Source: Chondrosia reniformis (lineage: Eukaryota > Porifera > Demospongiae > Chondrillida > Chondrillidae). Taken from it: a stretch of DNA of 64,000 nucleotides. The stretch spans positions 6,820,001 to 6,884,000 of the forward strand of contig OX359191.1 in the NCBI GenBank assembly GCA_947172415.1, given 5' to 3'. Below the pieces are notes generated by a model, which was given only the letters and a program-made list of their open reading frames with translations, did not search any database and had not been told where the DNA came from. Both the position numbers and the translations under genes were made by a program. Shown one piece after another: positions 6,061 to 62,003 of the stretch (the stretch's first letter is position 1; each line of letters opens with the position of its first letter).

Positions 6061-6771
6061 TTAGTTAATTCTGTTTAATACCTTGGTTGACTGCAGCTGG
6101 TGCAGGTTGGTCCTCAAAGTCAGTTCCTGGTCCAAACAGGATATCACATCCATCAACTGCCTCTCTCTAGCCCTCGCCTTTGGGAGCGTAGAATTACCCA
6201 AGCTAGACTGTAGCTTCGCCTCGAGCTGTGCAAGTTCCTTCTGATGTCTTTTTAAAAGGCTTTCCTTCTCCTTAAAAATCTTCAACAGCTCGTCTTTGTG
6301 ATCATTTAGCAGCTTCAACTTTTCTGGATCTTCGCTTAAAGAAGAAATGGCACAATCCAGGTTTGAAGCGATCATAGTGACTCCTTGTAAGCGTTTCCGC
6401 AAACTTCGTTTCATTCGACCAAGCAGAAGCTCGGAGCGTCGCAGAGCCTTATGTTTGATCAAATATCCTTTTGGCTTCTTGTGAGAAGGCTGAGACACAA
6501 AAAAATCCGCGTCCTTCAACGCAAAGGTAACCTGTTTCTTGTGCTTGCCCCACTGTGCCCAAACAAGAAGAGGTCTCTCCTCCGGACTCATTCGTCTCAT
6601 GCAGTTGTGCCATATTTCTACCATGACTTGGGGCTTAGTCTTCTTGGTTGCGTTAGAAAGAACTTTAACGAGGTCACCACATGTCGTGTCTACGCTTACA
6701 CCACGAATTACGCGCCCCTGACCTTCCACTTCAACTACAAAGTCGAACTTGCTTTCTGCGTCTTCAGCCAT
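6061..6771 (-). CDS. N-terminal RASSF (RASSF7/8-like) protein, single exon
   Basis: An intact 236-residue intronless reading frame. Residues about 8-90 form a Ras-association domain of the N-terminal RASSF type. The pattern is FVVEVEGQGRVIRGV, TTCGDLV, EIWHNCMRRMSPEERPL and AQWGKHKKQVTFAL, which follows RASSF7-10 proteins closely. Residues about 115-225 are rich in charged heptads and should form a coiled coil, as in RASSF7/8. The family links Ras/Rap-type GTPases to cell adhesion, mitosis and stress signalling. The gene is head-to-head with DDB1, 237 bp between start codons. The lack of introns may reflect retroposition or ancestral intron loss. Which of the four family members it represents cannot be settled by eye. 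Confidence 0.85.
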   Translation of the reverse strand: MAEDAESKFDFVVEVEGQGRVIRGVSVDTTCGDLVKVLSNATKKTKPQVMVEIWHNCMRRMSPEERPLLVWAQWGKHKKQVTFALKDADFFVSQPSHKKPKGYLIKHKALRRSELLLGRMKRSLRKRLQGVTMIASNLDCAISSLSEDPEKLKLLNDHKDELLKIFKEKESLLKRHQKELAQLEAKLQSSLGNSTLPKARARERQLMDVISCLDQELTLRTNLHQLQSTKVLNRIN

Positions 6772-7008
6772 TTTGTAAAACTGTAAACACGATTACCGAT
6801 AAGAAACCACAAGTCATCAGGGTACATCTTCAGCACATGTAGTGCCTTTGGACTTCAATGTTAGGAGTATACACTTGCTAAGGGACAGCCTCGCAGTGAA
6901 TCATACTTGTGTCAACGTTCGTCCACTATATTCCTTTCCGGAAGTGTAATTCTAAATTTCAGTGGGACGTCGGCCATTTTACGAGCACATTTACCTCCTT
7001 TGACCAGT

Positions 7009-11486: not shown

Positions 11487-14400
11487 CATACATACATATA
11501 TACATACATACATATATACTAATAAAGGGATTTAAAAGCAACACAATTTTATCAAATTTGAACGTTTCAACCTGAAGGTCTTCATCAGCAACAGGGTTGA
11601 AATGTTCAAAATTTGATTAAATTCTGTTGCTGAGACTCATTTGAATCCCTTTATTAATATGATCGCAACAAATAATCCGTATCATTTCATACATATATGC
11701 GTACATACAGTATATGTACATGTATACGCATGTACATGTATATGCATACATACTAACTTACATATGAGCATATGCTATATTCTGTTTGAGCCAGTTGCAA
11801 TGGTAACACAAGATTTTTTTGTTTTTGAGAAAATGGCTTCCAAATACGTATCTTAATATCAGAATGTCATTGTATTACAAGAGTACCATTTCTATGCTCT
11901 ACTGCCTCTAGGGGTGTGGTCACTCAAGACTGGACCAGACAGCACATCTGATAATGCTATTGTTATTAGCTTTGTGGGACAGACGCGGTTAGTGTACAAC
12001 TTCTGTTGTCATAGTAACTAATATTCATATTGTTTCTCTTTGTTCCGTTTCTTCCTCAAGTATTTTGAAGCTGACTGGAGAGGAGTTAGAGGAGACAGAA
12101 GTCCCAGGGTTCCAAGATTCTGATCAAACTTTTCAATGTGGGAATGTAAACCATAGCCAAATTGTACAGGTACGTACGTATGGATGAGGATACAAGAAAC
12201 TTCTAGATTTTCTTCTTCATCTTCTTCTCCACTGGGAATTCCACCCTTCCTCAGCGACCCTGGGATTCTTAACCTTCTTCTTGATCTTTTGTGATTCCTT
12301 GGCCTATGTGTATGGACTGACAGATTATCTATCCCTTTATGTATTGATCTGCTGTCTTGTCACACTCAGCTCTATCCTTGCAGATTACTCCATCTTCTGT
12401 GAGGCTTGTTAACCAAGAAACGTTAGCCCTGGCAAGGTGCTCATGTGTATAGTATAACCTACTACGTACACCACAAGAATTGTCTAATTTACTAATGCTA
12501 ATAACTAGTACTGGTTTTACGCTAACCAGGTGTTACCATTAGATATGTAGGTGCAATTTACTAATACATCACTTTTTTAAATAAAGATGAAGATGAAAGC
12601 TGTGTCTTAATGTATTAAGCTTCAGAGCTTTAAATGAGGATTCACTTTTTTAATTCCTTTATCTTTGATTCACATCAATGATACATGTACGTATCGTACA
12701 TACGATCAAAAATATATTATGTAGAGTTTATTAACATTTAGTTCAGCATTTCCACTTGATTTCATTATAGCCTTTGGAAGCCGACTTCAGGAAAGAAGAT
12801 TGGCACATCTGCTTTCAATAGTAACCAGGTGGTGGTTGCTATAGGTTGTGATGTGCACTATTTGGAAATAAAGGAAGGAGAACTTAAGGAAGTCTCGTAA
12901 GCATAATATACAGTACACTCATTATTAACCTGAAAATGTCACATGATGGTCACATTACTCTGCACAGGCACTGTATCCTAGAGTATGAAGTTGCCTGCAT
13001 TGATATATCCCCGATTAATGGGAAGGATACAAGTGACATTTGTGTAGTTGGACTGTGGACAGACATTTCAGTGAGGATATTAAAGCTTCCTTCGTTACAA
13101 GAACAGCATCATCAAATCCTCGGAGGAGGTATGTATAAGTCTATACAATGTACATAATGTATATACCTACTATAACTGCAGACATTTTTGTGTGATAAAC
13201 TTTCATGTTGAAATATTTTCATGGTCTGGACCAATCAACTACACTCGTTTGATTTGTGTGACTGATTGCATGTGTGTGAGTGTGTGAGTGTGAAGGGACT
13301 GGTGAGTAAGAGACGAGTATACCTGCAACTAGCAGGGATGTGAGCTTTTGGGCCGTACTACATATTTCACTCTTGTTCCCAGAGCATTTTATTATTCTCT
13401 CTGTGTGTAGAGATATTGCCAAGATCTGCTTGTATGATCACAGCTGAGGAGATATCCTATCTTTTGGTTACCCTTGGCGACGGATGTCTACTCTACTACA
13501 ACCTTGATCCACATACCTATGCCTTGTCTAATGCAAAGAGAATAGTACTCGGAACTAAGCCAGTTATACTGAAGAAATTCTATACCTCAGGTATGGGCTG
13601 GTGAATGTAATATCTATCCCTTTTATTTATATTTGTGCATCACATCTCTCACATGCAGGTTCAGCAGTGAATGTTTTCACTTGCTCAGATCGTCCAACCA
13701 TCATTTATTCAAACAATAAGAAGCTCCTCTTCTCCAGTGTGAATATGAAGGAAGTAAACTACATGTGCACTCTGAATGCAGAAGCTTATCCTGACAGGTA
13801 AGGGTGCTTGGGGAGGGGAGGCTGACAGGTGAGGGTGCTTGGGGAGGGGAGGCTGACAGGTGAGGGTGCTTGGGGAGGGGAGACTGACAGGTGAGGGTGC
13901 TTGGGGAGGGGAGGGTTACAGGTGAGGGTGCTTGGGGAGGGGAGACTGACAGGTGAGGGTGCTTGGGGAGGGGAGGCTGACAGGTGAGGGTGCTTGGGGA
14001 GGGGAGACTGACAGGTGAGGGTGCTTGGGGAGGGGAGGGTTACAGGTGAGGGTGCTTGGGGAGGGGAGACTGACAGGTGAGGGTGCTTGGGGAGGGGAGA
14101 CTGACAGGTGAGGGTGCTTGGGGAGGGGAGGGTTACAGGTGAGGGTGCTTGGGGAGGGGAGACTGACAGGTGAGGGTGCTTGGGGAGGGGAGGGTTACAG
14201 GTGAGGGTGCTTGGGGAGGGGAGGCTGACAGGTGAGGGTGCTTGGGGAGGGGAGACTGACAGGTAAGGGTGCTTGGGGAGGGGAGACTGACAGGTAAGGG
14301 TGCTTGGGGAGGGGAGGGTTACAGGTGAGGGTGCTTGGGGAGGGGAGGCTGACAGGTGAGGGTGCTTGGGGAGGGGAGACTGACAGGTAAGGGTGCTTGG

Positions 14401-17400
14401 GGAGGGGAGGGTTACAGGTAAGGGTGCTTGGGGAGGGGAGACTGACAGGTAAGGGTGCTTGGGGAGGGGAGACTGACAGGTGAGGGTGCTTGGGGAGGGG
14501 AGACTGACAGGTGAGGGTGCTTGGGGAGGGGAGGCTGACAGGTGAGGGTGCTTGGGGAGGGGAGGGTTACAGGTGAGGGTGCTTGGGGAGGGGAGGCTGA
14601 CAGGTAAGGGTGCTTGGGGAGGGTGACAGGTGAGGGTGCTTGGGGAGGGGAGGCTGACAGGTGAGGGTGCTTGGGGAGGGGAGGCTGACAGGTGAGGGTG
14701 CTTGGGGAGGGGAGGCTGACAGGTGAGGGTGCTTGGGGAGGGGAGGCTGACAGGTGAGGGTGCTTGGGGAGGGGAGGGGAAGGGAGGGGAGGGTTACAGG
14801 TGAGGGTGCTTGGGGAGGGAGGGTGACAGGTGAGGGTGCTTGGGGAGGGGAGGGGAAGGGAGGGGAGGGTTACAGGTAAGGGTGTTTGGGGAGGGAGGGT
14901 GACAGGTGAGGGTGCTTGGGGAGGGGAGGGGAAGGGAGGGGAGGGTTACAGGTGAGGGTGCTTGGGGAGGGAGGGTGACAGGTGAGGGTGCTATGGCAGT
15001 GCATTAGAGTGATCGATTATTATCAAGCACTGCTTGCATACAATCTTAGACACTGAACTACTTTTTAAAGGGAGTGTGTGCTAACTGATTTTATGTGGCA
15101 ATTTATGAGTGCTGAAACAAACTATATGCCTGTAGTAGTATTCCAGGATCTTTGTAGCTAAATTGAACTGAATTTATGACATTGTTGGCACTTAGTGTAG
15201 ACACTTAGATATATACATACGTATGTACTTGCTTGCTTATGTAACAATGTGATGCATGTAGACAAATGCATTGTTCTGTGTCTTCTCATGTAGTTTTGTA
15301 TTAGCCACGGATGACTCTCTCATCATTGGCACAGTTGATGACATTCAAAAGCTTCACATGCGGACCATCCCCCTCTACGAGACGCCTCGTCGCCTTGCCT
15401 ACCAGCACTCCAATCATGTGTTTGGTGTTGTAGTAGTACGAACAGACACTATTTCGGACAATAGAAGGTATGTTGAAGGTATAGATTGGCCCTCCAGAAT
15501 CCTGGTATGCTGAGTCAGCAAAACCAAGAAAAGTGACAAAGTGTGCCAGACCCACCTTATGTGGGTGGTAGCCATTTTTGTGGAAGTGGGGCTGGGGACG
15601 AGACTAATTTTCGGAGGTTTACTATTAAGAGGAAGCTTATAGAAGATGCACACTAAATGTTCATGCCTAATACCTTGTTAGCATGCACTGAGTTGTTCTA
15701 TTCAAAGCTGCTCATAAGTTTGATTTTCATTTGTAATTCCAATCTCTTTCTTTAGTGCTAGTTTATCAGCTGTCAATCATGGCATTTGTCCTGACGAGCC
15801 TCTACTTGAGAAGGATGAGGAAGCTTTATCTAATGACACCTCCTCAGTCCTAGTCTTGGATGAAAATACCTTTGAAGGTAATATATTAGTGTATGAATAA
15901 TATAAATTACCACTTTCCTATATAGTTATTAAGCCTAAGAGCCTAAGAAACTAAGAGCCTAAGAGACTAAGAGCCTAAGAAACTAAGAGCTGAAGAGACT
16001 AAGAGCCTAAGAAACTAAGAGATTAGAAGTTAAGAGCCTAAGAGACTAAGAAACTAAGAGCCTAAGAGATTAGAGGTTAAGAGACTAAGAGCCTAAGAGA
16101 CTAAGAGCCTAAGAAACTAAGAGCCTAAGAGATTAGAGGTTAAGAGACTAAGAGCCTAAGAGACTAAGAGCCTAAGAAACTAAGAGCCTAAGAGACTAAG
16201 AGCCTAAGAAACTAAGAGCCTAAGAGATTAGAGGTTAAGAGCCTAAGAGACTAAGAGACCAAGAGCCTAAGAGACCAAGAGCCTAAGAGATTAGAGACTA
16301 AGAGCCTAAGAGCCTAAGAGACCAAGAGCCTAAGAGACCAAGAGCCTAAGAGATTAGAGACTAAGAGCCTAAGAGAGATTAGAGACTAAGAGCCTAAGAG
16401 ATTAGAGACTAAGAGATTAGAGACTAAGAGCCTAAGAGAGATTAGAGACTAAGAGCCTAAGAGATTAGAGACTAAGAGCCTAAGAGACCAAGAGCCTAAG
16501 AGATTAGAGACTAAGAGCCTAAGAGCCTAAGAGACCAAGAGCCTAAGAGCCTAAGGAGATACATAAAGAATATAATAGACTAAAACATATAACACTTATG
16601 AGACTTAGGGCAACTCTATATAGAGCTTTGGATGAGGATATGTGCAGTTTGACTTACTGTCTTCCTTTTCTCCACTGCTCCATTGGTCATGTATGCACTT
16701 TATACACTAGGTGCTTGTGGTATGTCACAGGAGTTTAAATGAGATTTCATGTGCGTATGATAATTGTGCTGGTAAAACTCAAGCCTGTGAAATATCTAGT
16801 TTGCATGTTTTTGTCTCTGAGATATTATATGTACTGTACCTAGCAATGAACCTCTATGATATTACGTATATGTAGCAAGACCACAATAGATTAATATACT
16901 GTTTCTTGTTCGGGGAAGTGGCTTTTAAAGCCATGTGGACAGAAGTGGAAGTAGCAATCAGTGACACCTCTTTTACGTCCATGTGTGTCACTTGCACAAG
17001 TGGAAACAACTTTGAACTGACACGTGTGCAAGCTTCTTAACTATTTTGTACAGCTTTAATTTACAAGTTTCAATGCCGAAATATGTAGTATTAGTGAATT
17101 ATTGATAACTACTTTACCCAGTTATCCGTAGGGGCAGAGGATGAGAAACAAGAAATTATTCTACTTTGACCTTATGTGTAATTCCTATTTAAATGGATAC
17201 ATTGTACAATCTATAATAGAATAAGGATTCCTTCTAATTGCGTCGAATTTATCTTTAGAAAGGGTCATCTTCGACTTTTAGAGCGTCTAAAGACACAGTT
17301 TTTCTTGCTTCTTCTTTCTGTCAAATGTTTCGACCCTGGGGGTCTTCTTCAGTGATCCACTGTACAATCTCTTTCCATTCCAGTGCTTTTTGCCCTTACC

Positions 17401-22361: not shown

Positions 22362-26134
<3,773 letters not shown>

Positions 26135-26859: not shown

Positions 26860-27232
26860 ATTAATAGAGAGAGAGGGAGAGAGGGAGAGGAAGAGGAAGA
26901 AAGGGAGAGGGAGAGGAAGAGGAAGAAAGGGAGATGGAGAGGAAGAGGAAGAAAGGGGGAGGGAGAGGAAGAGGAAGAAAGGGAGAGGGAGAGGAAGAGG
27001 AAGAAAGGGGGAGGGAGAGGAAGAGGAAGAAAGGGAGATGGAGAGGAAGAGGAAGAAAGGGGGAGGGAGAGGAAGAGGAAGAAAGGGAGAGGGAGAGGAA
27101 GAGGAAGAAAGGGAGATGGAGAGGAAGAGGAAGAAAGGGGGAGGGAGAGGAAGAGGAAGAAAGGGAGAGGGAGAGGAAGAGGAAGAAAGGGAGAGGGAGA
27201 GGAAGAGGAAGAAAGGGAGAGGGAGAGAGCAT
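26860..27232. repeat. Pure purine minisatellite (GGAAGAGGAAGAAAGGGAGA)n
   Basis: About 370 bp with essentially only A and G on the plus strand; two alternating unit types (GGGAGATGGA, GGGGGAGGGA). It is the source of long false reading frames on both strands. A mirror-symmetric purine tract like this can form intramolecular triplex DNA. Confidence 0.97.
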
Positions 27233-27457: not shown

Positions 27458-30400
27458 TTATAATACCAGCAGCAGGCAAAGGACAGTTAAGAGAGATGCC
27501 ATAAATTTAAAATGTGCTGAAACAGATGCTCCTCCTGTGAATGCACTCACATTGGTAATCTCGTACACATCCATGGCTAAAAAGTTTTCTCCTTCAAAAC
27601 TACCTCCAGTACCAAATCTACACAGCTCTGATGGCCCAGATGCATTGAATACTGCATTATCCCCCTCTCCAGCAATACACACATTCTGGAGGATGCCATA
27701 GATGGTTAGACCTAGGGAGTGAGCGGCCATCCCACACTGCCTCACCACTGGAGATGCATCCGTACCACCAGATAGGAGAGGCAGACTTCTGTTGATGGAC
27801 ATAAGACCACCGTTCTGCTGAGTCAGGTAATAGCACCCTCGATAGGTCACCCCTTATATGGAAAGAGTAAATCATAATTTATCTGAATATGATCACTACT
27901 CATATGAAGATTACAGTAGGTTGAAGAGATGAAATTAAGCACTACTATGACTATAGATCCAGTATTCTCTCTAGCTGTACTGTTAATTAGTTTATTTTAC
28001 ATGAACAATCTAGTACACCTCTATGGTTATCATGCCTATGAAGCTAAGGAAGCAAATGAGTATAGACTTAAAACACTATTTTCTTAGACTAGTTACTAGG
28101 CACAAACTTAAAGATTACATATATTGCAATAGTAATATGATATTTGTAAAATATTACTTCCATCTGATTCAACTCCTATAAAGACATGATATATAACTGT
28201 ATATACCTGTTAGATTGGTAGCACAAGATTGTGCATTACATGACTCCTCTTCAGTAGCACAAGGTAAGTCATTACATCTGTGTCTCAGTCTCCGCCCACC
28301 TCCACAGGAGAGGCTACAATCAGACCACGCCCCCCAACCTGTATTGGGCAATGCTACAAGAAACAAAGTTTGCAATTGAAATGATTCTACAAACCAATTA
28401 AAATTGAACTGCTCTAAATTGGAATCCTGAAAAGAAAAAGTGACATGCTCCAATATTGATGACCTACCTGGTTCATTGGGACAAGGTATGTTGACATTAC
28501 AAAATTCATACTCGACCAAGTTCCCCTCACAACTTGGAGCATCCGGTTGACAGTTTCTGGAGCGATACCTCCTTCCTGCTCCGCAAGTGGAGGAACAACT
28601 GCTCCACCCACTCCACTGGGAGAGACTGCCCACTAACATATACAGTATGGTATGACAAAATGAATATGAACATCATGTGACCATCATGTGACCATCATGT
28701 GACTATCATGTGACCATCATCATGTAAAGCCAATAATATAATATATACCTGGACATGTTACTTCATTACAGGACTGAAAATCAGTATTCACTCCAACACA
28801 AGTGTTTCCATTTAAACATGTTCGAGTACGAGCTTGTCTCCCTCCATCACATGACTCACTGCATGAGCTCCATGATGACCAGCTGCTCCAAGATGGCCGA
28901 CGTGAATCTAAAGATGCATCATAGGGCATGTATAGTAGGATGTTCATGTGAGAGCTTCACCATGGCAACTAACTTCTGCAAGTCTGTGTGTTGCAGGTAA
29001 TAATGTCACTGCTCTCCCCATCACACACGTCTCCTTCCACACAACTCCTCACTCGTGTCTGAGTGCCTCCATTACAAGTGGCAGAACAGACAGTCCAACT
29101 TGTCCAGCTGGACCATGTTCCCACAGTGACCCCGCAGTCATACAACAAGTTGATGTGGTCAATGTCCAGCTCTGTCATTGCAGTCCGCTGTCCCAGCTCT
29201 GAGAGGGAGACTCCGGCTGCCAGTGGAATGACAGTGGGCTGTCCGTTGGCTGAGAATGCAAATGCACTGTAATGCATGATGGATCTGTAGTCATAAGGTA
29301 TCCCATTGGTAGTTGAGAGGGAGGAGGAGATTATCTCAAAGTTGCGCTCCGTACCTGAGACAGGGGAGGAATGGTGGCTGGCTGGATTAACAGACAGACA
29401 GACAGAGAGATGGATGGATGGATGGGTGCTACCTTCTATAGCATTTTCTCTTGCAATGGTGACATAGAGATCCCTGTCAAATCTGCTTTGTTCGTGCCAT
29501 CTTCCCAGAGTATGGAATATCTCGTGTTGCACAATCCCAGATACCTCACACCCTTTGCCAATAGATATGTCTTGCTGGCCTCCTGCCATCCCAATTGGTG
29601 AGAAACATCTACACAGAACAGTTACACGTGACTGTCATATGAATGGAATACACATATTCTATCATGACTGCATATCCTGTACATGTACGTATATATACTG
29701 AATTAGAAGCCTAAAAGGCACACCATATTTGATTAGATATATTAAAGAAGTTTTACAATATTCTCATTCATGTAATAATGGCTTCAACTATAGAATCACT
29801 ATAGAACGGTAGAAGGGTGTGATATACTTCTCTCTGTCCTACACTCACCCCTCTCCTAACACACTCACCCCTCTCCTAACACACTCACCCCTCTCCTAAC
29901 ACACTCACCCCTCTCCTAACACACTCACCCCTCTCCTAACACACTCACCCCTCTCCTAACACACTCACCCCTCTCCTAACACACTCACCCCTCCCCTAAC
30001 ACACTCACCCCTCCCCTAACACACTCACCCCTCCCCTAACACACTCACCCCTCTCCTAACACACTCACCCCTCCCCTAACACACTCACCCCTCTCCTAAC
30101 ACACTCACCCCGCCCCTAACACACTCACCCCGCCCCTAACACACTCACCCCTCCCCTAACACACTCACCCCTCTCCTAACACACTCACCCCGCCCCTAAC
30201 ACACTCACCCCTCCCCTAACACACTCACCCCTCTCCTAACACACTCACCCCTCCCCTAACACACTCACCCCTCTCCTAACACATTCAACCCTCTCCTAAC
30301 ACACTCACCCCTCCCCTAACACACTCACCCCGCCCCTGGATAAAACCTGACGTAGTTGCTTTGTGTAGTTCTTGGGACGAATCTAATGCAAGTGTTTGCC

Positions 30401-31169
30401 ATGTAAGACTCCATTGCAGACATAATGACTGACACAGCAGTACTGGCTGTACAAAAGGAGACATTAACACACACACATACATGTATGTACATATGTACTG
30501 TGTATTTATAATTTATATCCGATAGACACTCACATAGAAGAACATCCAATACATATGGAACAGTTCTGTCTGGCCAAAGTCTCTCTTCAACTGCAGGAGC
30601 AAGGACAGCCCTTTTGTTGCGATTTCCTTCTGTAGACCTTGCTTGATCTGCTTCAAGAAGCTTCCACTGATCATCAGTCAACACAATGTCACCTTCAACT
30701 AGTCCTCTACCACCTAATACACAACCAGTCACACACAGATACACAACCAGTCACACACAGATACACAACCAGTCACACACAGATACACAACCAGTCACAC
30801 ACAGATACACAACCAGTCACACACACAGGTACACAACCAGTCACACATAGATACACAACCAGTCACACACAGATACACAACCAGTCACACACAGATAGAT
30901 ACACAGCCAGTCACACACAGATACACAGCCAGTCACACACAGATACACAACCAGTCACACACAGATACACAACCAGTCACACACAGATACACAACCAGTC
31001 ACACACAGGTACACAACTTATTAAGCAATCACAAACCTTGTGTAGCTTTTTCAATGATATCCCACCCCTGGGGTCTGGGAGTTGGAGTTGGTGCTCCTTG
31101 AGTAATCTGAAGGTTATTCTGTATATAAAGCCACAATGACCACAATAACACTACAGCTCTAGAATCCAT
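27458..31169 (-). CDS. Secreted astacin metalloprotease with four thrombospondin type-1 repeats
   Basis: Nine exons on the minus strand, 31169-31037, 30713-30534, 30446-30329, 29608-29433, 29354-28974, 28907-28749, 28632-28468, 28353-28207 and 27852-27458, sum to 617 residues with consistent phases. A signal peptide precedes a propeptide ending in NKR. The catalytic domain has the zinc site HEIFHTLGRWHEQSR (near residue 172) and the Met-turn SIMHY. Four thrombospondin repeats follow, each with a WSxW-like start and CSxxCxxG. The last exon encodes a domain of about 100 residues with paired cysteines (YRGCYYL...VCIAG), only loosely WSC-like. The tail MASLLTVLCLLLVL has no residues after it, so a GPI anchor is possible. 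The family cleaves matrix and growth-factor substrates; the substrate here is unknown. Introns 1 and 3 are filled by minisatellites. Confidence 0.92.
29845..30345. repeat. 20-bp minisatellite that copies the astacin exon 3 splice donor
   Basis: About 25 copies. On the gene's strand the unit is GTGAGTGTGTTAGGAGAGGG. The real donor is GGGGCGGG|GTGAGTG at 30329/30328, and the array starts exactly there. Each unit repeats GG|GTGAGTG, a near-ideal 5' splice site. Internal variation is mostly CTCTCC versus CTCCCC or CGCCCC. Confidence 0.95.
30716..31018. repeat. 22-bp minisatellite abutting the astacin exon 2 acceptor
   Basis: About 13 copies of ACACAACCAGTCACACACAG+AT fill intron 1. On the minus strand the last unit (GGTTGTGTATTAG) has become the acceptor itself. 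Confidence 0.93.
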
Positions 31170-36044: not shown

Positions 36045-39000
36045 CTAATTATTAACTAGACAATATTCACACATACTGTCATCTGAGGATTCATTGTCAC
36101 ATCTTCTGTATTTTACTGATCCATTTGTAGCTACCACTTGTTTGTGAGTGATTCCAGTACCTTCCCTTTCCATGTTCTCTATTTGTAAATAAGTACAAAA
36201 GATTACGAATAACTAACTATCCAATATGCATGTTGAACTGCCTTAAGAACTAGTATACTATGCAGCAATACACATATTTCACCAACCAACCAATAAATTC
36301 CCTGATCCTCCTCACTAATTCTTGGTGAGGGTCATGAGTTGCATCAGTAACAAGTGCGTCAGCAACTTTAGCTAACTTCTCCAAAGAGGGACACCTCTCA
36401 AGGATCAGGTACATCTCTTGATTGCCCCGTTCACTAATTGAAAGCAAGAGCCGCTCACTCTCAAAATGAGTAATAACTTCAGAAGCTAGGAGTTTTGTGG
36501 CAATGTTCCTGAAGTCACACTCGGACTTGATGAACTCCTGGTTTTTCCTCAAAAAATCTTTTACTTTTTCATCAGCAACTTTATAGAAAGAGAATACAAA
36601 TTACATAATCATATAATATATTATATATACGTATACATTTAGTATATTAGCACTATAATGGTCATACTATATGTTCAGAAATAAAATATAAACTTCTATT
36701 ATTAACAGGTACAGACACACAAAAACTACAAAATAGCAAACATACAATGTTGATTTTCTCCCTCTGGTAGATTCACAGACAGAGTGTCCAGGCATTCCCT
36801 TGAAACTATATACGTAAATGTACATATAAAGTAGGTAAATGAACAATTTGAAAGCATACACAAATTAAAATACACCTTAGAAATGCACATGTTTACAACG
36901 AGAATGAGTGACTGAAACTTTTAATTTTTAATGATACCACAGTTGCTAAACAACATTATTTCCAATCTCTAATCATGATTTTATACATGCAGTAATTAAT
37001 ACAATACGTACATACATTATATACTCTCACCAGTTAAGGTGCTAGATGAAGGAAGCATATTTTTCAGCTGCACCAACGAAGGATGACAGCCAAACACCTC
37101 ATCTGTTGGGACTGGAGGAGGATGTGAAGAATCTTCAGCAAGAGGGAGGATAAAGTGTTCACCTAACTGAACGGACCGTAGCACATCTTCAAGTGGAAAA
37201 AGCCTGCTTTCTGAAGATAAATTAGGCTTTCCAAACAGACTCTCATCTTGCACAGCATATGCCTTTACTGCCAATTGAGGGGACAATTCCTTGACTGTCT
37301 GAAGAATGAGGCAGGTAACATCTGAGATGAAGGCAAGTTGGCCATCTGGAGTGGACAGGCTTCTGCTCATTACTTGTACAACATTCCTGTTGGATATCTG
37401 AACAGCAACTTCAATGCCACTGGTGGTGGACCAAATAATGCCGTTCTGCCAGAAAATACAGCAATGCTCTTTTGTTGAGATACGCTTGATCACAAAATTT
37501 GCAGCCAAACGAAGGAAAATGGTTTGATGGAGCCGAGCTGAATAGAATTGTTGTCCTGTGGCTTGAAGATGCCAGCAGAAATGGCTGTAAACTCTGCTTG
37601 GAAGAGGTTCTGAGAACAGATCATCTGGTTCATTCTTCTGCCTCATCAGAGATGGGAAGAACAACCAACCAGTCTCGTTTGTCTGAGAGGTCAGTTTTAG
37701 AATGTCTTCTTTCAGAAAAGATGGATCAACTTCAAGACAGAACTCAAGATTAATCAGCAGTAGGTGTATCATTTCCATTTCAAAATCAATTTGGGAAAAC
37801 AATTGATCAATGACCTCTCTTTGGATAATACCAAATTTTAATGTTGGAAAGTCTTCATTGGGTTCTATAAACTGTGCAAACAGTCTGCCATACACAATAG
37901 AGAGTACTCTATTAAGATCCAGCACCAACCAACTCTCTGCTGGAGCTCGTCTGTTTGGAAGATACAGAGCATGTCCACTGGCGGAGAGGTCTCTACATAC
38001 TTGATCAGCTGATGGAAGATTGTATGGCAACACTTCCTTATTTTCTATCATCCAGGATTTGAATTGTCCCATTCTGAGAGCTGCATCTCCAAGAGACGAT
38101 CTCAGTTGGCTAATAACCCAGATTAAATTGTACCTATATTGATCAAATATTACTGATTCTTCAATATTCACATCCCTGATACATTGTTGAATGTGTTCTA
38201 TTCCATGAGACATAATATAACGACAATCTAAAATGCATGGCTTCTTCAGTTCCATCCATATCGGCCTATCTAATCTTTCACTGCATCTCTTAATCTTCTG
38301 TAGTGCCTCTGTAATTTCTGCCCTATTTTTCAGCAGGTTGCCATAGTTACCAACAGGCACCACTTGGACTGTGCTATCTCTCAGAATATCTGATGCTTGC
38401 TGAATAACTTGTTGGAGCCACTGAGTCATCTGATCAAAGATTACCTCTTCTCTATCTGTGGATTTCACAAGAAGCAGTAGAGTAAGTGTCACTCCTGGAC
38501 GACCAAGCAGTGCTTCAAGAAATGGTTGGTGTGGACCGTGGTACTGTTCCTGACCAGCAAAGTCATAAAAGAGGACTCTTCCATAGAATTTGCTTTGAAA
38601 TGGAATACTCTCTATACCAGCTGTGCGTTCAGTGATATCATCAACTCTTGCAAAATATCCACTGTGACAATATGGTTCAATCATTAGATCAAACCATTTA
38701 ATAAAGCTGCTTTCAACAAGACATTTTACGTGTTTAATAATGAAGGCACCACACTTTAAAAATCCCCAATAAAAGCTTCGATTCTCACGCTGTAGAGCCG
38801 CTACAAGAGTGCTCTTTCCATGACAACTGTTTCCAATGACAGCTACCAACTTGTGATTGTTCAGAGAGGCCACTTGTTTCATTTCATTCTTTAACCATGC
38901 AGTAGCGTAATACAATGGTGCATTGCCACTTTTATCCAAAAGATCCAAACTGGCTCCAGCCTTAACCAGATATTCACATGATTTAGATTGCTGCTCAATA

Positions 39001-40544
39001 GCAGCCCAATGTAGAGCAGAACACCCATAGACAGGATCAGTCAGGTGTGGGTTAGCTCCTCTCAAAATCAGCTCTCTCGCTATGTCATCATGACCATGTC
39101 TTGCTGCTTCCATTAACGGGATCCCTGAACCATTTCCATTAGGGTCACCTCCCTTGGAAAGGAGTAGACGCACTACTTGGAAGTGACCATTAAAACAAGC
39201 ATATTCCAGAGCTGTTCCATCTGCTTCTTTATTGACGTCAGCTCCTGCTTCTATGAGTGCTTCTACAATACGTTCCGAACCCACTTCACTTGCTAGCATT
39301 AGAGCAGTTTTTCTTCTTCTCCATTTATCATCTCTATCTTTGCTAGTACAATTGATAGATACCAGATCTTCAGTGTGAAGGAGTGATTTAACTGTGGAAA
39401 GATTTCCCTGTCTGCAAGCTTCATAAAGTGAGTCATTAGGTGTGATTAACAACAAGGCAGTTTCTTCGTTAACTCCCAAATTAGCAACATTACTTCGAAC
39501 ACAATTTCTTTTGAGAGATAACAGGCATTTACAAAAGATTTTACAAGTATGAAGTAATTTAATTTCTTTAGTTTTCATACTACAGTACAGTGGTTTGATT
39601 ATAAAGGCAAACAAATATGCCATTATTATTGCACTGATTAGCAATCCATTATTATTAGAAAATTTAAAAAGAACAATGTCATGGAAACAAGGAATAAGTA
39701 AAGAATACTGAAAAATATTAATGACCTGCAAAGGTATCCATTGCTTGAAAACAGTCTTTACAGTTACAGGTCTCACTGGATGAATGCTTAATTCTCTGAT
39801 TGGTATTGAAGAATTGAGACCACTGTGCTGTGTCTGTTTGCAGCATTTCCTGACCAGTGCAACAAAAAAGTAGAAAGTTGGTAAAAGTATGATATACTGT
39901 ATAATAACTGTATATTTATAATCAGTTAAAATAGTTGCATAACAACCATTAACACCCAAAACAATTGCAAAAACCACAACAGTTACCATGCCGACCACAT
40001 ATGTAGCCAACCAAAACAAACAAAAACATGATCGATTGAAAATGAGTTCACAAATTGGAGTTACTCTGTACGACAGAAGTTTGTTTCTAGGTTCACCATT
40101 TACAACTTGAAAAGCTAAAATACAACTCAGAAACTCAGCACTCCAGAAGGATACAATTTGATAGGTAGTATAGGCTACACAGGAGATCTGTGATCCATAA
40201 TGTCCATAATCGCATTCTTTATTAGACACTAATATGAATTGCACTGTTAATGTAACCAGGATAAGCTGTATGTTGCTGATAGAGAGGAGACCAAGGAGAC
40301 ATTCCAACACTGAAAGCCTACATCTTCTGTTCGATTTGCAGTTACGCAATACAGAAATGATTAAGAGTAAGTTTGTCAACAAACCAGTAAACAAAAGAAG
40401 TGTAGCAGGTATGAAGAACTGCGGTGAAATTGTTGAATAGGTAAAATTACACCGGTAGAAATAAGAATACGGGTGAAAATTCGTACAGCAATTCATCCGA
40501 CCAGTATTTCTCTTATAATTTACGAAAGTAAATAAGTTTATCAC
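36045..40544 (-). CDS. Seven-transmembrane receptor / ankyrin / Roc-COR GTPase / CARD-like fusion protein
   Basis: One exon (40544-37031) encodes 1171 uninterrupted residues; a second (36578 to about 36283) and a last one (about 36186 to the stop at 36045) finish a protein of about 1,310 residues. Residues 44-322 contain seven hydrophobic helices with Cys122 before helix 3 and Cys201 in the second outer loop, the usual rhodopsin-type disulfide pair; helix 1 has TNLLLIISVLRN and helix 7 ends IIKPLYC. Residues about 372-560 are ankyrin repeats (GADVNKEADGTALEYAC, GCSALHWAA). A Roc GTPase follows: P-loop GNSCHGKST at 571-579, DFAGQEQYH at 661. COR follows from about 800 (CRDLSASGHALYLP, SWLVLDL). 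The second exon is a helical death-fold, CARD-like. The ankyrin-Roc-COR-death-fold order recalls the DAPK1 tail, but with a receptor in place of the kinase. The last splice junction is ambiguous. Confidence 0.9.
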
Positions 40545-51000: not shown

Positions 51001-52648
51001 CTAGCTTTGAACCATTTCTACATACAAAGCCAGGTTAACCTTTGACCCCATGCACTCTACACTGTACGTGAGTATTGTCACATATATTGCTGGCACATAT
51101 GTACATACGTACTGACCTGTATATGTCCATTCCTCCTCCTTCACCATAGCTGAACTTGAAAGTGTAGGACTCTATCACTGTCTAAACAGCAGATACGGAA
51201 CATACGTGCGGACACTTAAGTACCAATTGAAGGGTCTGGCACACATAACGTGCACTTGAATTGGTCTACAGTGTTCACCTCTGGATCATCCACATTGTGG
51301 TATATCTGGAAAGTGGCCATAACATCACGTTAATAGCTGATACCAACACAACCTGCATGCAACTCACTCCAATAACAATCGCCTGAAGCTGCATGCAAAG
51401 GAGCAGAGAAAAATAAGTGACAACTGCAAAGTATCCATCTCATCTGGACAACTCACATATTTCTTCTCTAGTGCATCAAAGCAACCTCTAACCCTAAATA
51501 CAATACATTAGTTATGGGGGCAGTCTCATACACTGATAGCCTCACTCACCATCGTATGACCTGGCATGCTCCAGGGCAAGTGCTGTCATCTCGTAGTATC
51601 TTCAAGTTCAGGTCTAATGAAAGAGGTTTGTAAAGCATGGTTTACTTAGCTAACTGCACCAGCAGTATGTTCTGCTCCATGGAGCAGTTAGATAAGTGAA
51701 GCATGGAGTAGAACATACTCCTAGTACAGTTAGCTAAGTAAAGCATGGAGTAGAACATACTCCTAGTACAGTTAGCTAAGTGAAGCATGGAGTAAAACAT
51801 ACTCCTAGTACAGTTAGCTAAGTAAAGCATGGAGTAGAACATACTCCTAGTACAGTTAGATAAGTGAAGCATGGAGCAGAACATACTCCTAGTGCAGTTA
51901 GCTAAGTGAAGCATGGAGTAGAACATACTCCTAGTGCAGTTAGATAAGTGAAGCATGGAGTAGAACATACTCCTAGTACAGTTAGCTAAGTAAAGCATGG
52001 AGCAGAACATACTGCTAGTACAGTTAGATAAGTGAAGCATGGAGCAGAACATACTCCTAGTGCAGTTAGCTAAGTAAAGCATGGAGTAGAACATACTCCT
52101 AGTGCAGTTAGCTAAGTGAAGCATGGAGCAGAACATACTCCTAGTACAGTTAGATAAGTAAAGCATGGAGCAGAACATACTCCTAGTACAGTTAGATAAG
52201 TAAAGCATGGAGCAGAACATACTGCTAGTGCAGTTAGATAAGTTCAATTATGCAAACCTTCCAAACAGCGATCCCCAAATGCATGCTCAGGGAATATAGT
52301 TCTATTAAATGAGAAGAGACAAAGAAGATATTGTTGAGCAATAGACTACTCATTCATGTTCCTTTGCTCACGACACAAGTACACTATTCCAAAGACCCAC
52401 CTCAAATATGTGATATTGGACACCTGTAAGAATGCGAAAATACATGACGCTACATTTTTGTTTTAAGGTTTGGAAAACTTACTGCAATGGCCAGGAGTTT
52501 CTTTACGAAAAGGCTTGACTGTTGTTCTGTTACTTGCTTGTTTGGAAAGATAGTTGACCACTGTGGAGGAAGAAGCGTGTTAACGAACAACCTAATTAGC
52601 TATACCAATTCCCACCCCTCCAGTTCTTTGCTTTTGACAAGTTGCCAT
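48043..52648 (-). CDS. HORMAD1: Meiotic HORMA-domain protein with PHD and winged-helix region, complete
   Basis: Meiotic chromosome-axis protein (Hop1/HORMAD) promoting strand breaks and synapsis. 22 exons: 52648-52616, 52560-52483, 52423-52401, 52301-52258, 51613-51550, 51493-51457, 51388-51368, 51305-51279, 51181-51117, 51017-50949, 50877-50795, 50734-50634, 50505-50495, 50421-50343, 50261-50231, 50131-50081, 50017-49890, 49311-49195, 49130-48986, 48892-48666, 48457-48386, 48135-48043. Total 532 residues. The HORMA domain (about 12-240) starts FPNKQVTEQQS and includes KPLPDDVMMTMKLLYYDD and VTPVDYQPPNF. Residues about 307-354 form a PHD-like finger (RCPCS, LMILCGVC, WQHAVC, ICEMC). Winged-helix-like sequence follows (KSTAQGLLNRLEKEGLVG). 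The end KKRKVSVADKSIMV looks like a nuclear signal plus closure motif. Vertebrate HORMADs lack the PHD/winged-helix part. Confidence 0.93.
50495..50505 (-). other. HORMAD1: 11-nt HORMAD micro-exon
   Basis: CCCTTTCACAT between a TAG acceptor and a GTAAGT donor. It restores phase between exons 12 and 14 and supplies PFH, matching PFH in human HORMAD1 (GEVSTPFHIFK). Without it the flanking exons do not join in frame. Confidence 0.8.
51650..52245. repeat. 42-bp minisatellite, about 14 copies, HORMAD intron 4
   Basis: The unit is AGTTAGCTAAGTGAAGCATG+GAGTAGAACATACTCCTAGTAC. Because 42 is a multiple of three, it gives a false 201-residue reading frame of 14-residue repeats on the minus strand. It lies wholly inside the intron. 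Confidence 0.95.
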
Positions 52649-60450: not shown

Positions 60451-62003
60451 ATGAGATTTAGTATTCTTATCAGCTTGTTATTCACAGTTGCTTGGTCAGA
60501 CAGAGCTTCAGGTAAGGCCTTGTGTATATACTGTTATTATTTCCTTATATTCTACACATTTATAGCTGTAAGAATCTTGTAGTTGTGTTTATATGATTAG
60601 TAACTATATACAACAGGAGGAGGATATTTTACTTTACTTATCAAATGTACGTAGATGATAGCTCTATATAGCTCTCTCTACATATGTACAAGGCAATAGT
60701 TTTGCTCTATGCACTAACTGCAATCACTATTAGACATACAAAAGGGTGCATATATACACACAAGGGTAACCTACAACAACTGTAGGCCTCCTTCTCCAGC
60801 CATAGCTGTATGGGTATCTTAGCCACAAATCGGTATCTCAGTCACAAATCGGTATCTCAGTCACAAATAAGGTATCTCGGTTACAAATAAGGTATCTCAG
60901 TTACAAATCAGTATTTCAGTCACAAATCGGTATCTTAGTCACAAATCGGTATCTCAGTCACAAATCGGTATCTCAGTCACAAATCGGTATCTCAGTCACA
61001 AATAAGGTATCTCAGTCACAAATAAGGTATCTCCGTCAGGTATCTCAGTTACAAACCAGTATCTCAGTTACACAAACCGATTTCTCAGTCACAAATAGGG
61101 TTTCTCAGTTACAAACCGGTTTCTCAGCCACAAACAGGGTATCTCAGCTATAGTTTTGTGTGAAAGGTGGTGATATTTACTTCTGTGTTGTATCAGGTTC
61201 AAACTGTGCTCAACTAAGTAACTGCTCTGAATGTATTCAATCAAGTCTGAAATGTAAATGGTGCACACAGCTGGTAAGTCTATATTTAAGACACGCATGT
61301 AGTCAGAAAACAAGTTTTCTATATATATATACTATATTATATATATTTTAGTCTGTATAATGTAATAGCTTTATTTTGCATATTTAGGGTTTTATTGGAT
61401 CAAGGTGCCATTCTAATGAGGCTAATTCTTCTTGTAAAGTGTTTTATAACCCAGAAGGAGAACTTAGTATAGACAAAGTAAGTCATCTTCCTCTGGCCAT
61501 TTCCTTCCTTTCCTACTCAGTCTGTTCTGGGAACTACATGGTTCATATAGGATAATATATATCACATATTGCTTCCTTATTGCATTTGGTAATGGCTTAC
61601 TTCTCATTGTTAGCTTGTGAACTTTACTCTTTGATCTTTAACCAGTTTTAACTTGATAGAATGTGTTCAGTAATGTTAGAAATATTAGATTAAACTACAA
61701 TGCAAATGCAGTAATAGGATGGATTGTGATACTCTAATGTGTATATTACACATTACCAAAGAACCCCACACTCTATATATCTATCCGAACTCGGTACTTG
61801 TGTATGTGACTGTCTGGGAAGTGCGGCCTGGTAGCCTTAAGTGGCGATGGCTTAATGCGCCCAGGCAGTCGGGCTATGTACCTGGGCGGACGGCCTGGTA
61901 GCCTTAAGTGGCGATGGTTTATACGTGTCCAGGTATAGCCCTGTGCCCCTTAACCACCTCTGGTTTGCATCTTATACATTTATCTGTTGTATGCATGGGC
62001 ACC

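Follow-up and report, generated by a model that had tools for sequence, protein, structure and literature searches.

We analysed a 64,000-nucleotide stretch of the genome of the demosponge Chondrosia reniformis (GenBank assembly GCA_947172415.1, contig OX359191.1, positions 6,820,001 to 6,884,000 of the forward strand; hereafter the window), whose minus strand carries a gene joining a predicted seven-transmembrane (7TM) domain to ankyrin repeats, a Roc GTPase and a CARD-like exon. The gene lies on a stop-to-stop frame of 1175 codons (37017..40544, minus strand); 40 Markov-1 simulations of the window produced no frame longer than 178 codons. Its first ATG is codon 17 (position 40496) and aligns with the start of the database relative P0003. 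An initial annotation of this DNA had placed everything from the helices to COR in a single exon with a CARD-like exon downstream, and both points hold. Up to the splice donor at 37030 exon 1 is uninterrupted for 1171 codons plus one base from the start of the frame (1155 codons plus one base from the ATG), and from N- to C-terminus it encodes a short outer segment, the hydropathy peaks, the ankyrin repeats, Roc and, where COR would be expected, a conserved region. The features are as follows.

37031..40496, minus strand: coding exon 1, 7TM - ankyrin - Roc - COR position (open frame, start alignment, donor ACTG/GTGAGA)
39450..40496, minus strand: predicted seven-helix domain (hydropathy, AlphaFold2 helices at a mean predicted local distance difference test score (pLDDT) of 47, loop conservation pattern)
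38895..39428, minus strand: ankyrin repeats (Pfam Ank_2 1.8e-30, Ank 1.8e-28)
38310..38867, minus strand: Roc GTPase (P-loop GNSCHGKST at 38808-38834, DFAGQ at 38550-38564, GNYGN at the G4 position)
37050..38309, minus strand: conserved region in the COR position, about 420 residues (kept in paralogues and ENA relatives)
36579..37030, minus strand: intron 1, phase 1 (GT and AG splice signals, in-frame junction)
36291..36578, minus strand: exon 2, conserved CARD-like helical domain (in-frame splice, identity to paralogue exons)
36045..36178, minus strand: putative exon 3, 44 codons and a stop (splice signals and frame only)

With exon 3 the frame is kept to the stop and the protein would comprise 1295 amino acids. 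Exon 3 is nevertheless only a putative assignment, since nothing related to its peptide turned up in the C7 array of paralogues described below, in L038 or in L040 (best E 2.2).

The gene belongs to a family. Members were counted in the genome (117,379,552 bases in 15 contigs) from a full-length genome search, the reading of genomic stretches and a 7TM search. At least ten genes combine a 7TM, ankyrin repeats and Roc, at four places (one on C3, six on C7, two on C1 and one on C13), which rules out a restriction to one gene. The window gene on C3 is type A. Type B comprises the six copies of a tandem array at C7 743-809 kb, three of which (772, 779 and 797 kb) have an intact first exon; type E comprises the two copies at C1 2.93-2.94 Mb and type F the copy at C13 4.32 Mb. 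The paralogues share the plan of the window gene, in which a very large exon is followed by a distinct CARD-like one. For three database proteins, P0002, P0003 and P0004, identity to the window protein is 89, 85 and 89% in one alignment and 89, 82 and 86% in another comparison; the whole 7TM is present in the first two, and the P0004 entry begins inside it. There is a difference in copy number, one type A copy here against three close relatives on one other contig. P0121-P0127 from the protein database are type B, and four of them (P0123, P0125, P0126 and P0127) match C7 copies with 100% identity along the stretches that were compared. The part of the genome paper covered here reports a deposited alternate haplotype and a k-mer completeness of 69.43% for the primary assembly, and it lists an RNA run, ERR10177766 (PMC12181767). 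In view of these identities and of the deposited haplotype, P0002-P0004 may represent the second haplotype of this very animal.

The seven helices proposed for the N-terminal part stand at the level of prediction. At a cut-off of 1.6, hydropathy gives six peaks in the window protein, seven in P0002 and six in P0003, and an AlphaFold model of the 365-residue N-terminal part has seven long helices (residues 25-52, 57-91, 101-132, 146-183, 191-223, 246-276 and 283-339, the last including the helix-8 stretch). This model has a mean pLDDT of 47 and was based on 11 aligned sequences, and therefore only its helix count was used. The N-terminus is predicted to lie outside. The inner loops of the window 7TM are basic (by eye), and the conservation pattern is in phase with the topology. 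Outer segments are identical to the window protein at 15 of 78 positions in P0002 and 23 of 76 in P0003 (19-30%), as against 105 and 104 of 115 positions (90-91%) in the inner segments; the helices match at 133 and 129 of 161 positions (gaps were counted as differences throughout). The Fisher p-values for the contrast between outer and inner segments, 1.5e-25 (P0002) and 2.9e-18 (P0003), are descriptive, because the segment borders were set by eye after the alignment was known. The loop-by-loop match of this alternation to the predicted topology also supports the topology itself.

Among the parts that follow the helices, the ankyrin repeats were recognized as annotated, by a Pfam Ank_2 match at 1.8e-30. 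Single-sequence Pfam scores for Roc (17.9 and 20.1 bits) fall under the cut-off of 27. A family profile, however, finds the Roc domain of LRRK2, the nearest solved relative, at 4.4e-8; together with the G1, G2 and G3 motifs, which are intact in all four type A proteins, this confirms the assignment. The spacing between G1 and G2 is 60 residues in the window protein, 58 in P0002, 38 in P0003 and P0004 and 27 in type B. The 60-residue stretch of the window protein (38628-38807, minus strand) is in part hydrophobic and is about 33 residues longer than in the C7 genes. As for COR, a long conserved region does follow Roc, but it is not recognized as COR by Pfam and a profile search of the PDB gave no match beyond Roc; we call it COR from its position only. 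Pfam scans of the window gene returned Ank, Roc below its cut-off, and neither 7tm_1, COR nor CARD over the cut-off. They also gave no kinase or LRR (leucine-rich repeat) match, so that a DAPK1-type N-terminal protein kinase is lacking. Across all contigs of the genome, a Roc profile gave 149 matches among 150 scored candidates, a share of which are ordinary small GTPases, and several long single-exon ankyrin-Roc-COR frames lie on C13, C9, C10, C7, C6, C4 and C2.

Exon 2 is in frame and conserved. Its domain shares 44-52% identity with eight C7-array exons and 32-38% with sequences from C13, C1, P0005 and P0117, and it is kept across ten compared sequences. In the paralogues such exons likewise lie behind an intron (eight in the C7 array and one each downstream of the C13 copy and of L038, a C1 copy). 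The downstream exon of the annotation is therefore real as a conserved unit, but Pfam does not recognize it as CARD over the cut-off, and a profile of nine CARD-like exons found no CARD. What leads there are consist of a Dark_CARD match at 0.11 in the C13 copy, one of four scanned, and CARD8 matches of the family profile at 0.09 and 0.12, which an unrelated Nudix protein outranks at 0.025. We accordingly call the domain CARD-like and no more.

The 7TM domains of types B, E and F are related to a free receptor of the same genome, L041, which type F finds at E 8.8e-12. In the PDB, L041 matches nothing but class A G-protein-coupled receptor (GPCR) chains or chimeras at E up to 10 (15 matches, best 9.6e-5), and L041 in turn finds two further free receptors, L042 and L043, at 2.5e-8 and 9.1e-8, which match Pfam 7tm_1 at 1.5e-32 and 3.1e-35. 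The Pfam 7tm_1 cut-off itself was reached neither by L041 nor by the copies scored (four from C7, one from C1 and one from C13). Judged by these profile matches, the C7, C1 and C13 7TMs are homologous to 7tm_1 GPCRs of the same genome by way of free-receptor intermediates; support for a link of the window 7TM to these receptors is weaker and is considered below. L042 (C9:7110600-7112400, minus strand) and L043 (C9:7077300-7079300, plus strand) are single-frame rhodopsin-family GPCRs with DRY-like and CWxP-like motifs.

In an IQ-TREE analysis of the Roc-COR part (46 rows, taken from the 93 rows of a FastTree run), the 13 fusion rows, six of the ten genes of this genome and seven database relatives, form one clade of types A, B, E and F with support of 93/88, which is below the tool's starred level. 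FastTree on 93 rows gave the fusion clade support of 0.90 and 0.945. The branches of types E and F are long. A single GTPase clade suggests that the fusion of 7TM and Roc probably arose once. Soluble ankyrin-Roc-COR proteins fall outside this clade, as do groups C and D, at least 25 proteins with a different multi-helix block within the ankyrin array; membrane tethering of ankyrin-Roc-COR proteins therefore arose more than once. The C/D-type proteins (P0076-P0120, ENA records) represent a second kind of membrane-tethered Roco-like protein.

The comparisons with known systems that follow draw on those sections of the cited papers that were covered. The domains named there for Roco proteins are LRR, ankyrin, armadillo, kinase, WD40 and death domains, and no transmembrane receptor is among them (PMC6337361). 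LRRK1/LRRK2, DAPK1 and bacterial Roco proteins resemble the window gene in having Roc followed by a long C-terminal region; LRRK1/LRRK2 also have ankyrin repeats and the DAPK1 group a death domain (PMC6337361). The window frame differs from them in matching neither kinase nor LRR and in carrying a 7TM. Conversely, the GPCR-TK, GPCR-TKL/K and GPCR-PIPK proteins of choanoflagellates and sponges combine a 7TM with a C-terminal enzyme in one chain, but their effector is a kinase, where the window gene has ankyrin repeats, a Roc-COR-type GTPase and a CARD-like domain (PMC12716839). Kinase-7TM fusions are on record not only from sponges and choanoflagellates but also from other eukaryotes, and among GPCR-TK, GPCR-TKL and GPCR-K none is known to the authors to have been characterized functionally; the tyrosine kinase portions of GPCR-TKs from sponges and choanoflagellates group in one clade and their 7TMs do not (PMC12716839). 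The word ankyrin is absent from the main text of that paper, and both ankyrin and kinase are absent from the main text of the description of 126 rhodopsin-family GPCRs in Amphimedon, where we found no such fusions in the part covered (PMC4302439); the likeness to those receptors lies in the link of the B/E/F 7TMs to 7tm_1 receptors of the same genome. Sea anemone genes with Roc/COR (LRR-Roc-COR-TIR and kinase-death-TIR) share with the window gene the pairing of Roc-COR with immune adaptor domains in an early-branching animal, but neither a 7TM nor ankyrin is named for them in the part covered (PMC5094078). Brown-algal ROCO proteins, of the same family, are candidate immune receptors whose variable sensing part has been proposed to serve immunity; their variability lies in LRR exons and not in a 7TM (PMC11378527). 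Among the papers listed by searches on Roc-COR/Roco proteins, sponge GPCRs and their fusions, with preprints and most subscription papers outside the scope, we found no 7TM-Roc protein, and as far as that search reaches the domain order is undescribed, as the initial annotation had supposed. Its claim of novelty applies to the Roc-type effector only, since GPCR-TK and GPCR-PIPK are reported in sponges and the principle of fusing a GPCR to an enzyme in one chain is already known there (PMC12716839). The window family joins two known kinds of protein, GPCR-effector fusions and Roco proteins.

On balance, we think that the window gene encodes a one-chain membrane receptor-GTPase-adaptor of a small sponge family, a reading from sequence that we hold with moderate confidence. 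The chain, the order of its domains, its relatives and the loop pattern are established from the sequences; the signalling steps that follow are drawn from what is generally understood of Roco proteins (in part PMC6337361), GPCRs and death-fold proteins. With its N-terminus outside, a diverged seven-helix domain of the rhodopsin type would sense a signal with its variable outer face. Helix 8 would run directly into the ankyrin repeats and the Roc-COR-type GTPase under the membrane, so that movement of the helix bundle on signal binding could alter the nucleotide state or the dimerization of Roc-COR. The altered Roc-COR would then expose or cluster the C-terminal CARD-like adaptor, which would recruit death-fold partners. 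The role is probably immune or chemosensory. Such a receptor would suit the tandem array, the broken copies and the copy-number differences, as well as the 53 binned bacterial genomes of the sponge specimen, a figure from the covered part of the genome paper (PMC12181767). GPCRs have been counted among the candidate pattern receptors of another sponge (PMC8242945, in part).

A bolder form of this reading, which we offer tentatively, is that a rhodopsin-class lineage swapped its heterotrimeric G protein for a covalent GTPase. Ligand binding would be read by the Roc-COR of the same chain and passed to the CARD-like domain, and the family would be a variable recognition system, for pattern or self, with a constant inner engine and an outer face that is swapped or remodelled, perhaps between haplotypes of one animal.

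Several observations weigh against a one-chain receptor-GTPase-adaptor, and these are set out here with the alternatives. The G4 Asp, present in 90 of 93 compared proteins, is replaced by Asn in the window protein and P0002. The window protein may therefore use nucleotides differently from a standard GTPase; in Ras, the corresponding substitution reduces the preference for guanine. A type E copy has Ser at G4 and a changed G3, the type F copy also has a changed G3, and in the C1 and C13 copies exon 1, with its degenerate Roc motifs, ends early in the COR region. GTP use may thus be lost in part of the family. These changes would fit a window Roc that no longer cycles GTP, with Roc-COR serving as a scaffold and ligand-driven clustering of the CARD-like domain providing the signal. 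We regard this as rather unlikely, however: G1, G2 and G3 are intact throughout type A, two of the four type A proteins, P0003 among them, keep the G4 Asp, and Roc is the most constrained part of the C7 copies, with a ratio of non-synonymous to synonymous substitution rates (dN/dS) of 0.23.

The outside-variable pattern is missing from the C7 copies, in which intracellular loops ICL2 and ICL3 and transmembrane helix TM4 vary most and the extracellular loops ECL1-ECL3 are 71-89% identical. Such fairly conserved outer loops, and the recurrence of membrane tethering with another multi-helix block in groups C and D, are consistent with a seven-helix domain that is a mere anchor or localizer without ligand sensing, an intracellular cue acting instead on the ankyrin repeats, as may be supposed for the soluble ankyrin-Roc-COR relatives. 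This is unlikely in our view, given that conservation in the window lineage is by far lowest in the outer segments, which is unexpected for a mere anchor, and that the B/E/F 7TMs are related to free receptors. Among five C7 copies (10 pairs; two copies are broken further on and only their open parts were used), the 7TM is the fastest-evolving part, with 58% identity and a dN/dS of 0.77 as against 0.47 for the ankyrin repeats and 0.23 for Roc. The 7TM ratio exceeds 1 in two of the 10 pairs, equals 1.00 in one and is 0.60 among the three intact copies. Positive selection on the C7 7TMs was rejected as a conclusion, values of 0.77 and 0.60 not being separable from relaxed constraint.

The descent of the window 7TM is also less direct than that of the others. 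It has no match over the cut-off to any Pfam family, no PDB match and no other match in the genome; a database search with the domain alone gave no stand-alone relative, and hmmsearch of the window type against the B/E/F family was not significant (E 11). A weak match to TAS2R (0.0043, TM1-TM3) is absent in P0002 and P0003. A DRY motif is expected at the end of TM3 in rhodopsin-class GPCRs. Its counterparts in L042 and L043 are FDRY and IDRF, and it is absent in the window (AFQVVNGEP) and in the B/E/F copies (all by eye). Pairwise and profile comparison did not show A-type and B-type 7TMs to be plain homologues, and only the profile with the free receptors matched. With that profile, hhalign aligned the window type at E 1.9e-4 (hhalign probability 48%) with TM6, TM7 and helix 8 in register, and 0 of 200 block shuffles scored as high. 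This register, the PIRxL motif before TM6 common to types A, B and E, and the TAS2R match, weak and confined to one of three A-type members as it is, all speak against the view that the original receptor part was replaced by an unrelated module of seven helices and that the window 7TM is not a GPCR, which we consider quite improbable.

An artefact is extremely improbable, be it the assembly error that the initial annotation had left as the only way to explain away a join within one exon or a pseudogene in which the helices and the remainder are never translated together. Half of the C7 copies do have a stop or frame break in exon 1, and in one C1 copy of the two the N-terminal part lies in its own frame, which contains stops, but the same join recurs in ten copies at four places and in three relatives on another contig, which rules out an assembly or gene-model error, and the window gene has 1155 open codons with conserved inner loops.

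The rest of the window holds frames that by eye resemble part of an NDR/LATS-type AGC protein kinase (23143-23856, plus strand), an astacin metalloprotease with a thrombospondin type 1 repeat (28969-29634, minus strand) and a RASSF-type Ras-association protein (6061-6792, minus strand). A G-rich tandem array of 32 copies of a 31-bp unit at 13791-14992 lies where GC skew is strong. Further tandem arrays, whose units measure about 8 to 93 bp, are found at 15932-16555, 26879-27227, 29841-30331, 30717-31017, 51685-52243 and 60813-61147.

Textbook 7TM receptors act on a separate GTPase. Here a single molecule comprises both the 7TM domain and a Roc GTPase and ends in a CARD-like adaptor. If functional, the gene would provide a receptor-GTPase circuit in one natural chain, and the Roco family, to which LRRK2 and DAPK1 belong, would include a membrane receptor in animals; it would also show how an outside signal can switch Roc-COR. 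The gene family itself offers the material for tests: a window lineage that is conserved inside and variable outside, several copies in one genome, and free relatives of the C7, C1 and C13 forms as controls.

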